DNA of 64,000 bases, taken from Alphaproteobacteria bacterium (GTDB taxonomy: Bacteria; Pseudomonadota; Alphaproteobacteria; Micropepsales; Micropepsaceae). Made by a program: the position numbers and the translations under genes. Location: assembly GCA_021325375.1 (NCBI GenBank), contig JAJPHG010000024.1, positions 62,001 through 126,000 of the forward strand, given 5' to 3'. The notes under the pieces are model-generated. The model worked only from the letters and a program-made list of their open reading frames with translations, was not told where the DNA came from and ran no database searches. Below, in pieces: positions 2,734-5,793 of the stretch. The stretch's first letter is position 1. Every line of letters begins with the position of its first letter.

Positions 2734-2964
2734 GGGTAGGGCTCTTTGATGGGCTTGGCCTAGCACGCCCTTTCGCGGGGCGGCAAGCACGCCGCAAACA
2801 CCCCCCTCTTGACAAAAACGAGGCCCGACGCGGCCTAGGCAATTTTGTTGCCGGACGCGCATAAAGTGCCCAGAAATGGGACTTTAAGGACTGCGGGCGA
2901 AGCTGTTCCCTAGAGACTCCGTAGGCGGATGAATTTCAGTTCGCCGTGAAAAATAAATTTCGGA

Positions 2965-3216
2965 ATGCTTGACAACAAGCGCAGCAATCAGGTTCGTCGT
3001 ATACCTCTTGACCGATTGGCTAACGAGCGTGCCGTGAGCAAAGTTCAGCGAATTGAATCAGAAGCCGACTATGGTCGGGCGCTCAAGGAAATCGAGCGCT
3101 ACTTTGTGTACGAACCCGCGCTCGGCTCACGCGAGGGCGATCACTTCAACATGCTTGCCGCACTGATCGAAAGCTACGAAGAGAAGTACTGGCCGATCGC
3201 AGGTGTTCAGACATAA
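2965..3216 (+). CDS. HigA-like antitoxin N-terminal fragment (truncated)
   Basis: An 83-residue reading frame, visibly less GC-rich than its surroundings. The segment IESEADYGRALKEIERYF followed by an acidic GD...LAALIESYEEKYWPI matches the N-terminal part of HigA-type antitoxins, in which an XRE DNA-binding domain normally follows. Here the frame stops right after that motif, with no helix-turn-helix downstream and no HigB toxin adjacent. It may be a remnant or a stand-alone short protein. A GTG at 3034 would give a 60-residue version that starts just before the conserved region. Expression is uncertain. Confidence 0.55.
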   Translation: MLDNKRSNQVRRIPLDRLANERAVSKVQRIESEADYGRALKEIERYFVYEPALGSREGDHFNMLAALIESYEEKYWPIAGVQT

Positions 3217-3222
3217 CCGCGC

Positions 3223-3298
3223 TGCCCTCACGCTTCGACAGGCTCAGCATGAGGGTGTGCTACAAGCCCTCACCCTGAGCTTGTCGAAGGGTGAGAGA
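3223..3298. repeat. Paired REP-like palindromes (CTTCGACAAGCTCA family)
   Basis: Two inverted copies of a short repeat, one reading CTCACGCTTCGACAGGCTCAGCATGAG and the mirror copy with core CTGAGCTTGTCGAAGG, lie between the HigA-like ORF and the LolA-like gene. The same pair occurs at 48991-49063. Such bacterial interspersed mosaic-like palindromes are non-coding and common in alphaproteobacterial intergenic DNA. Here the pair sits after two convergent stop codons, where it could also protect or end transcripts. Confidence 0.7.
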
Positions 3299-3307
3299 CA
3301 GTGATCG

Positions 3308-3925
3308 CTACTCGTCCTTCTTGTGCGCGAAGGGGTTCTTGTCGGGGAGGACGAAGAGCGAGGCCGGGAGGTCGACGCCGGTCTGCACGTCGCGCAGCGC
3401 CACCGTCGTGGACAGGCCCTGGTTGTCGATCACCGTCCATTGCCGCAGCTCCAGGCTCGGCATGGCGAAGGTGAGCGCGATGTCGGCGTGGACGCCGAAA
3501 TTGCTCGAGCGCGCTCTTACGATGAGCGCGTCCTGCTGATGCTCGACGCCGACGATCTCATGGTTGCGCTTGAGATCGATCGTGTCGGCCAGGATGAGGT
3601 CGAGCGGCGTCTGCGACAGCGGATAGCGGTCGACCGTCTTTAGCTTGATGTTCTCGATCGCGACCGTCGAGCCGTCGGAGACGATCAGCGTCGGCGCCGG
3701 CGCCTCGTACTGGAAGCGCACGCGCCCGGGCTTCACGAGCGAGATCTGCCCCTGGTCGACCTGCCCGTCCGGCCCGATCTGCACAAAGCCGCCTTTCAGC
3801 GTACGGATCGAGTTCAGATAGGCGCTGACGCGGTCAAGATCGGCGCGGTCCGCGTCGCTGAGCGTGCGTGCGGCGGCGGGGGTGGCGGCGGCGAGCAAAG
3901 CTGCCGCAACCATTCCCAATGTCAT
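3308..3925 (-). CDS. lolA: LolA-like outer-membrane lipoprotein carrier
   Basis: 205 residues from the ATG at 3925. Features are a hydrophobic export signal (VAAALLAAATPAAA), the LolA segment LNSIRTLKGGFVQIGPDG, then FQYEAPAPTLIVSDG and YPLSQTPLDLIL. LolA proteins carry lipoproteins across the periplasm from LolCDE to LolB. The start is debatable: the ATG at 3925 sits in the end of a palindromic repeat and is directly preceded by its GGCCCGC hairpin, and the short form lacks a basic n-region. A start at 4003 (231 residues) would translate the repeat into a basic n-region. Family call good, exact N-terminus uncertain. Confidence 0.83.
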   Translation of the reverse strand: MTLGMVAAALLAAATPAAARTLSDADRADLDRVSAYLNSIRTLKGGFVQIGPDGQVDQGQISLVKPGRVRFQYEAPAPTLIVSDGSTVAIENIKLKTVDRYPLSQTPLDLILADTIDLKRNHEIVGVEHQQDALIVRARSSNFGVHADIALTFAMPSLELRQWTVIDNQGLSTTVALRDVQTGVDLPASLFVLPDKNPFAHKKDE

Positions 3926-4043
3926 GGCCCGCAAATGCGGGCCACCCAGGTGACGCTTGCCCGCGCGCCCCAAACAATTTCTCAAAGAACCTTGCAGCAT
4001 CATGCACAGTCCAACTGGGTGGCCCGCATTTGCGGGCCATGAC
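3921..4043. repeat. Composite palindromic element, copy A
   Basis: The left end is GTCATGGCCCGC followed by its hairpin mate and CCACCCAGGTGAC (3921-3954). The right end is the mirror image, CTGGGTGGCCCGC...GGGCCATGAC (4015-4043). About 60 bases separate them. Three further copies are at 26438-26614, 52102-52270 and 61504-61581. This copy overlaps the 5' end of the LolA-like gene. Confidence 0.8.
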
Positions 4044-4083
4044 AGTTTTGATTGCTAGACAGCCATTACGGCGGAAAGAAGAA

Positions 4084-4689
4084 CTACGCCGCCTGCGCCC
4101 GCATCTTGGGGCACAGACCGTTGATCAGGAGCTGGATCACGCCTTCCAGCTCGCGCTCGAGCTTGGGCAGGGTCAGCTTCGACCACAGCTGCGGATAGCG
4201 GAACTTCATGGTCGCGGCCTGGATCATCTCGGCGGTGAATTCCTTGTCCTCGGGCACGAACTCGCCGCGGCGCTCGGCCTCGAGCATCAGCTCGACCAGG
4301 ATCTTGCGCTCCTCGCGCAGCATCCAATTGGCGAATTCGGGGCGCTCGCGCGAGATCACCAGCGCCATCTCGTAGGCGCGCGGGTCCTTCTCCAGCTTGT
4401 GATAGGTGCGGCGCAGTTCCTCGAACAGCAGGTCGTGCAGGCGCTGGCGGGCGTCCTTGCCCGCCGTCACCGCGAGCTTGCGCATATGGTCGAGATGCTT
4501 GGAATAGTCCTCGGTCGCGATGGCCTCGGCGATGTCGAGCTTGCCGGGATAAAAGCGGTAGAGGTTGCCCGGCGACATCGTGCAGTCGGTGGCGATCTCG
4601 GCCATCGTGGTCTTGGCATAGCCGAAATGCGAAAAGCGCTTCTTGGCGGCTTGAACGATCTGTTCGCAGATGGTGTCTTTTTCAGCCAT
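4084..4689 (-). CDS. TetR-family transcriptional regulator
   Basis: 201 residues, typical for TetR. The N-terminal helix-turn-helix occupies about residues 10-56, with KTTMAEIATDCTMSPGNLYRFY as turn and recognition helix. The all-helical C-terminal half is the ligand/dimer domain and gives no ligand clue. An SD-like GGGAAAG lies upstream of the ATG. The gene is divergent from gpsA with about 120 bp between them, so it may act on that shared region, but no convincing long palindrome was seen there. Confidence 0.9.
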   Translation of the reverse strand: MAEKDTICEQIVQAAKKRFSHFGYAKTTMAEIATDCTMSPGNLYRFYPGKLDIAEAIATEDYSKHLDHMRKLAVTAGKDARQRLHDLLFEELRRTYHKLEKDPRAYEMALVISRERPEFANWMLREERKILVELMLEAERRGEFVPEDKEFTAEMIQAATMKFRYPQLWSKLTLPKLERELEGVIQLLINGLCPKMRAQAA

Positions 4690-4809
4690 GAACGCTTTCC
4701 CGGGCGCCGCTCTTGGGCGGCTGTTGTTATCGATTCCACGACAAACGTAATGGATATTTCTGAATAATCAATGATCCGTTCAATCTTTTGCACCGCAGCA
4801 CAGGCCAAG

Positions 4810-5793
4810 ATGAAAGAAAATACAGAAAACTCAAAAGCTTATGAGACGGTCGGGGTGATCGGCGCGGGAGCTTGGGGTACGGCCCTGGCCTTCGCCGCCG
4901 CCCAAGCCGGCCGCCAAGTGACCTTATGGGCGCGCGAGAGCGAGGTCGTGGACCAGATACGCGGCAGCCGGGAAAACCGCATGTTCCTGCCGGGCGTGAC
5001 GCTGCCGGACACGATCGAGGCGACCGACGACATGGCGAAGGCCGCGAGCGCTGAGGCGCTGCTCGTCGTCGTGCCCGCCCAGCATCTGCGCGAGAGCGTG
5101 AAGGGCCTGGGCCAGGCAAAGCCGCTGGTGCTCTGCGCCAAGGGCATCGAGAAGGCGACCGGCAAGCTGCTCACCGAGGTGCTTGCCGAGGCAGCGCCGG
5201 AGTGCGAGCCCGCGATCCTCTCGGGTCCATCCTTCGCGCGCGACGTGGCGCGCGGGCTGCCGACCGCCGTCACCATCGCCGCGCGCATGGACATCGCGCT
5301 GCGCCTTCAGGCGACGCTCGGCCATGCGACGTTCAGGCCCTATGCGAGCGACGATCCGGTCGGCGTCGCGCTCGGGGGCGCGGCGAAGAACGTCTATGCC
5401 ATCGCCTGCGGCATCGTCGACGGGCTGGGCTTGGGTGAAAGCGCGCGCGCGGCGCTGATCGCGCGCAGCTTCGCGGAGCTGACGCGGCTCGGCCAGGCGC
5501 TCGGCGCGCGGCCCGACACGCTGATGGGGCTCTCCGGTCTCGGCGATCTGGTCCTGACCGCGACCAGCACGACCTCGCGCAATTTCAGCTACGGCCGCGC
5601 GCTCGGCGAGGGCCGCGAGGCGGGCCACGCGCTCGCCGAAGGCGTCGAGACCGCGCCCGCCCTCGTCAAGCGCGCGCGCGCCGAAGGCGTTGAGCTTCCC
5701 GTCGCCGAGGCCGTGGCGGCGGTGCTCGACGGTACCCTGCCGCTCGGCGAAGCTGTGCTACGCTTGATGAGCCGCCCGCTGAAGCCCGAATAG
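4810..5793 (+). CDS. gpsA: NAD(P)-dependent glycerol-3-phosphate dehydrogenase
   Basis: 327 residues from the ATG at 4810, the usual length; an ATG at 4771 would add 13 residues without homology. The Rossmann motif is GVIGAGAWGTALA at about residues 15-27, followed by LSGPSFARDVA, the catalytic lysine in AAKNVYAIACG, and GLSGLGDLVLTATS. The enzyme reduces dihydroxyacetone phosphate to sn-glycerol 3-phosphate, the backbone for phospholipids. It is followed at short spacing by YciI and EVE genes, probably one transcript. Confidence 0.95.
   Translation: MKENTENSKAYETVGVIGAGAWGTALAFAAAQAGRQVTLWARESEVVDQIRGSRENRMFLPGVTLPDTIEATDDMAKAASAEALLVVVPAQHLRESVKGLGQAKPLVLCAKGIEKATGKLLTEVLAEAAPECEPAILSGPSFARDVARGLPTAVTIAARMDIALRLQATLGHATFRPYASDDPVGVALGGAAKNVYAIACGIVDGLGLGESARAALIARSFAELTRLGQALGARPDTLMGLSGLGDLVLTATSTTSRNFSYGRALGEGREAGHALAEGVETAPALVKRARAEGVELPVAEAVAAVLDGTLPLGEAVLRLMSRPLKPE

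Follow-up and report, generated by a model that had tools for sequence, protein, structure and literature searches.

RESULTS

The lolA gene and the repeat element at its 5′ end

The window, that is, the whole 64,000-nucleotide stretch of alphaproteobacterial DNA analyzed here, in whose numbering all positions are given, carries on its minus strand, in 5′ to 3′ order, a gene for a TetR-type regulator (4689 to 4084; PF00440 and PF17935), a 21-nt motif (4076 to 4056), 11 further nucleotides, a palindromic repeat element (4044 to 3920), and lolA, which extends to 3308. An earlier sequence-only reading had called the last gene LolA-like, and this is borne out by a match to PF03548 (E = 1.6e-29) that covers residues 65 to 218 of the 231-aa long form (3308 to 4003), the form favored here, and positions 2 to 163 of the 165 in the profile; the domain is complete. 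The short form of 205 aa (3308 to 3925) takes its start codon from the end of the repeat. The GC content at the three codon positions of lolA (0.67/0.42/0.90) is of the coding type, and both a protein search and a family search found this LolA to be unique in the genome, which was scored as 100% complete. LolA is essential in E. coli, and we therefore assume that the protein is made in this organism. Directly behind the lolA stop lies a second, different palindromic repeat (3217 to 3307) with CCTGAGCTTGTCGAAGGGTGAG, the 22-mer having 11 matches in the genome, and an 83-aa ORF on the plus strand (2965 to 3216) is without a Pfam match.

The element at the 5′ end of lolA (3920 to 4044, 125 bp, with no strand assigned) was defined from its arms and its copy number in the genome as a REP dimer, two inverted TGTC-tagged palindromes joined by a spacer. 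The lolA-proximal arm (3920 to 3952) and the promoter-proximal arm (4012 to 4044) are 33 nt each, 97% complementary, and separated by 59 nt (3953 to 4011), and each forms a hairpin of its own, TGGCCCGC-N4-GCGGGCCA. The CAT at 3923 to 3925 lies within the repeat end TGTCATGGCCCGC (3920 to 3932), and the minus-strand ATG 3925 is thus part of that end and constitutes its outward-facing ATG. The sequence-only reading was therefore right to place this codon inside a palindromic repeat end with a hairpin next to it, whereas the span it gave, 3908 to 4043, is slightly off at both ends. An Rfam search of window positions 2800 to 5200 returned no matches.

No stop interrupts the lolA frame anywhere in the element, and the ORF from 4003 contains GKRHLGGPHLRAMTLGM, in agreement with the proposal that reading through the repeat yields a basic stretch; the short form begins MTLGMVAAALLAAATPAAA and, as had also been noted, lacks a basic residue there. 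Such an open frame is ordinary: of 19 dimers of comparable length, among them the one in the window, 12 lack a stop in that frame, a count that gives no support for selection to keep the element open. Less often, in 2 of the 19 (the window and L040), the spacer holds an ATG in frame. A 68-aa ORF in another frame (3834 to 4040, minus strand) takes its ATG from the promoter-proximal arm and has its stop inside lolA.

Distribution of the repeat in the genome and the genus

Exact matches to the repeat end GTCATGGCCCGC number 148 forward and 148 reverse in the 4.77-Mb genome, and since the reversed pattern, used as a control, has 0 and 0, the occurrence of this end cannot be put down to chance. At least one match is present in 68 of 69 genomes of the genus (G024 has none), with counts from 1 to 190 outside the window's own genome, which has 296; G071 has 190 and G016 has 158. 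Because counts of 1 to 3 are near the control level, we do not claim the family for every genome of the genus. The spread of counts among species of one genus, from 0 to 296, implies that bursts or losses must be frequent.

Among the stretches read there are 76 pairs with the tags outside (two of them overlapping in L099), in which the spacer varies and the arms hardly change. The outward flanks of these pairs share A-N-T, followed by G/T-rich, C-poor sequence to about position +14 (C at 1 to 3% at positions 5 to 7), a pattern that may reflect either a preference for certain targets or an element whose end is degenerate. A search of the 76 pairs for target-site duplications found no excess of 5- to 9-base direct repeats at any symmetric offset from 0 to 7, and 4-base repeats at offset 0 numbered 3 against 1.4 expected. 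A palindromic target site is likewise unsupported, the mean identity of the two flanks being 0.363 compared with 0.371 after shuffling. In several copies (L037, L038, L045, L048, and L070) the dimer has a common longer outward flank, A-R-GTTTGTTTGT...TTCC, as if it belonged to a larger repeat or had been inserted into one. The RAYT-type Y1 transposase domain (Y1_Tnp, PF01797) had no match in the genome, in a search that was positive in 5 of 14 control genomes.

Upstream motif and probable ancestral start codon in the genus

A lolA match was obtained in 66 of the 69 genomes, and 64 loci were compared, the window and 63 others of the same genus. The motif upstream of lolA, TTCCGCCGTAATGGCTGTCTA (4056 to 4076, minus strand), was recognized without reference to frame or residues, with up to 3 mismatches, at 34 of the 64 loci; the remaining 30 include the window's own, whose motif falls beyond the stretch searched. 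The first ATG behind the motif is in the lolA frame at 31 of the 34 loci and stands 9 to 12 nt away at 30, while two loci have no ATG within 25 nt and one has it out of frame. The proteins so defined start with M-R-R or similar, and in all 31 position 2 or 3 is occupied by a basic residue. A second rule, which took the nearest in-frame ATG with no reward for basic residues, gave a basic residue within positions 2 to 10 at 56 of 64 loci; the eight exceptions are the window and seven loci at which the ATG seems, by eye, to be an internal or misplaced Met. At L135, L137, and L139, the lolA start seems to have moved upstream (MHDLNPISRRLAI) after loss of the ATG used by L020 and L134.

The motif is probably an old promoter. 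In 326 coding-like ORFs from the window, G071, and G016 stretches (window and L158 to L197), CTA ending 10 nt before the ATG occurs 10 times, compared with about 2 at other distances (highest other, 6), and from this and the genus comparison we infer that the motif is a promoter that would give near-leaderless messages in the genus.

In the closest relatives (L003, L002, and L031; 68 to 71% identical), 10, 11, and 11 nt, respectively, separate the motif from the ATG. In the window, the motif and 11 nt lead straight into the element, and because no ATG with arginine codons remains on either side, the element appears to sit on the old start codon. The short form can be aligned to the protein of L031 (MRFFAVALSLCLLAVPAAART) with no gap, but the arginine of that protein is missing from it. 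If the element were cut out precisely, the candidate starts behind the motif would be TTG 3919, 11 nt away, and ATG 3913, 17 nt away, and no basic codons come after either of them; either an additional small loss of codons or an already unusual ancestor therefore has to be assumed. Repeat-free orthologs that begin at the same residue below an unchanged upstream region were looked for and not found; the repeat-free orthologs compared have an equivalent start position but other codons.

Candidate start codons

The in-frame ATG and TTG codons available as starts are ATG 4003, ATG 4000, TTG 3985, and TTG 3973 in the spacer (minus strand), TTG 3934 and ATG 3925 in the lolA-proximal arm, and TTG 3919 and ATG 3913 beyond it; accessibility was computed exactly for ATG 4003, 4000, 3925, and 3913. 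In a leader transcribed from the old promoter, the two arms are predicted to pair into a 30-bp stem, with a folding energy of -104.9 kcal/mol, compared with -69.2 kcal/mol (SD, 4.6) for shuffled sequences. In that leader the predicted probability of being unpaired is 0.00 for ATG 3925, 0.53 for ATG 4003, and 0.61 for ATG 4000. In two nascent forms that lack the second arm, ATG 4003 is predicted to be unpaired at 0.99 or 0.71, and in a message that begins in the spacer, ATG 3925 would be unpaired at 0.19. Shine-Dalgarno pairing is weak for ATG 4003 (-3.0 kcal/mol) and ATG 4000 (-4.6 kcal/mol), weaker for ATG 3925 (-1.5 kcal/mol), and strongest among the candidates for TTG 3934 (-7.1 kcal/mol). 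Initiation at 4003 or 4000 would give ...GKRHLGGPHLRAMTLGMVAAALLAAATPAAA, with a basic part ahead of the hydrophobic core, whereas a start at ATG 3925 or ATG 3913 would give a leader with no basic residue.

Because the spacer codons would restore a basic n-region and are partly open in the predicted leader, in which ATG 3925 is fully paired, a translation start at ATG 4003 or ATG 4000 is favored, as an evenly balanced judgment. Speaking against it are the weak Shine-Dalgarno pairing of these two codons beside the better score of TTG 3934, the unusually long n-region of the long form, and the AUG at 4040, which ribosomes would meet first on a message made from the old promoter and which opens the 68-aa ORF in another frame.

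Reading frames opened by other copies of the repeat

A sample of all repeat ends, 260 hairpin-verified ones (165 from the window's own genome, 61 from G071, and 34 from G016), was read outward from the tag ATG. Coding-like frames of at least 60 codons were opened by 5 of 165, 5 of 61, and 0 of 34 of these ends, respectively. Two of the five in the own genome, L038 (62 codons) and L085 (171 codons, with odd codon GC), may not be real genes, and neither has an ATG a short way downstream. Seven others besides lolA (L076, with GTG and AAGGGG; L093, with ATGATG; and five of G071) have the usual start downstream, as judged by reading rather than from orthologs. With 10 of 260 ends opening such frames, mostly with the usual start downstream, the repeat does not appear to be a general supplier of start codons. 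A ccmE-like gene (L081) was dismissed as a further case, its 12-mer being a chance match without a hairpin. At lolA, the only downstream ATG (3913) would give a leader without a basic residue, and among the 260 ends read, this case looks like a one-off.

DISCUSSION

Origin of the present lolA start

Directly supported at this locus are the element with its copy number, the absence of a genus-type start, and an intact, single lolA gene. We propose that a TGTC-tagged REP dimer landed on the lolA start codon, that the ancestral ATG and arginine codons were removed or displaced, either with the insertion or later, and that 125 bp of repeat now separate lolA from its old promoter-like motif. Survival of the gene would be owed to the element's having no stop in the lolA frame and supplying fresh start codons. 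Ribosomes would most likely start at ATG 4003 or ATG 4000; both lie in the spacer, which is transcribed ahead of the second arm. Translation would then continue through that arm and produce a longer signal peptide with a repeat-encoded basic part, KRHLGGPHLR, a peptide that may still direct export. That the element replaced the original 5′ end of lolA is highly probable from the genus comparison, and the whole account, consisting of a REP dimer on the start codon, a start in the spacer, and a read-through signal peptide, is one in which we place moderate confidence. The sequence-only reading had suggested that a mobile palindrome replaced the 5′ end and is now translated or controls translation; the first part is well supported, as relatives keep the motif, an ATG 9 to 12 nt behind it, and M-R-R-type starts, whereas here the motif runs into the element after 11 nt and no ATG with basic codons behind it survives on either side, and the second part is only plausible, given the single LolA gene, the intact frame, and the predicted 30-bp stem that would pair ATG 3925.

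The strongest competing explanation is that translation starts in the lolA-proximal arm, at ATG 3925 (MTLGMV...) or at TTG 3934 (MRAMTLGMV..., with one basic residue), the repeat having replaced one start with another like for like. ATG 3925 does stand at the orthologous start position in the ungapped comparison with L031, and TTG 3934 combines the best Shine-Dalgarno pairing of the candidates with an arginine restored at position 2. However, ATG 3925 has hardly any such pairing, is fully paired in the predicted leader and mostly so in a message beginning in the spacer, and would give an N terminus with no basic residue, where 31 of 31 motif-defined orthologs have one, and TTG 3934 lies within the same paired arm. 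We consider a start in this arm rather unlikely.

An elaboration of the spacer start, which we regard as speculative and distinctly unlikely, is that the dimer turned a near-leaderless lolA message into a hairpin switch, in which translation from the spacer keeps the stem open and gives a long, repeat-tagged precursor, while the closed stem shuts ATG 3925. If so, a mobile palindrome would set both the signal peptide and the dosage of a protein of outer-membrane biogenesis.

It is also improbable that the repeat is a mere insertion into the leader and that lolA starts at a native downstream codon, ATG 3913 (MVAAALLAAATPAAA) or TTG 3919. This would match the other clear in-frame cases beside this repeat, in which the usual start was read downstream, and after exact removal TTG 3919 would fall inside the 9- to 12-nt spacing of the relatives. 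ATG 3913 would fall outside that spacing, is directly abutted by GGGA, and would leave a leader of about 15 residues with no basic one, against the basic residue of every motif-defined ortholog. An assembly error that joined unrelated pieces, or a broken gene from which LolA is no longer made, is very improbable: repeats of such copy number can break assemblies, and the genome is in 45 contigs, but motif, neighbor, and gene are ordered and oriented as expected, the unbroken frame has a composition of the coding type, and this is the sole LolA found in a genome scored as complete.

Held against 63 lolA loci of the same genus, this is a clean case: a single LolA gene was found in the genome, a REP dimer lies on its start codon, and the rest of the gene is intact. 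When a REP overlaps the 5′ end of a gene, misannotation is often blamed; here both the old motif and the M-R-R start typical of the genus can be mapped. The conserved repeat end has an ATG that faces outward and encodes a basic peptide in the frame of that ATG, features that would ease the accidental repair of a signal peptide.

Comparison with known repeat systems

Except in its second stem pair and its tail, the element fits by structure the HH dimers formed by CGTC-tagged REPs, in their TGTC variant. According to PMC3733652, CGTC-tagged REPs are a class common in alphaproteobacteria and without a transposase of their own; units have the tag CGTC, or TGTC or CCTC in many repeats, at one end, a stem of 8 to 9 bp with A-T pairs at positions one and two, a loop of 4 to 5 bases, and an unpaired tail that is mostly CCA, and HH dimers have the tags outside and a spacer of 20 to 100 bp. 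The element at lolA has TGTC at both outer ends (3920 to 3923 and, as its complement, 4041 to 4044), an 8-bp stem with a 4-base loop (TGGCCCGC-AAAT-GCGGGCCA), the tags-outside pairing, and a spacer within the described range; it differs slightly from the consensus in that one A-T stem pair is followed by G-C and in that its tail is CCC. As to an associated transposase, the genome was searched for the Y1 family (Y1_Tnp) and had no match. A GTAG-type REP or REPIN with its RAYT was rejected, as the tag is TGTC and PF01797 has no matches, and a MITE of an ordinary insertion sequence was rejected on the target-site duplication result for the 76 pairs.

Rickettsia palindromic elements are similar in that a palindromic repeat shares an open frame with a conserved gene, and here, too, the frame runs open through the element into the gene (ORF 3308 to 4003). 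According to PMC10969869 and PMC2229807, those elements lie mostly inside ORFs and their translation is documented, whereas the element at lolA sits on the start codon and its read-through is a prediction. In PMC2759123, an RU-2 repeat in YPO1552, a putative exported Yersinia protein of unknown role, contributes hydrophobic residues, whereas the repeat here would contribute basic residues ahead of LolA's native hydrophobic core. A literature search found no REP on a start codon beyond the cited cases; others may be in print. As an instance of genome tinkering, the case is a good example of its kind, and that kind is known, not new. Some CGTC-tagged REPs do lie at the N-terminal ends of ORFs, and PMC3733652 suspects that most of these are misannotated leaders; the present locus adds an example for which the other loci of the genus argue against misannotation pure and simple.
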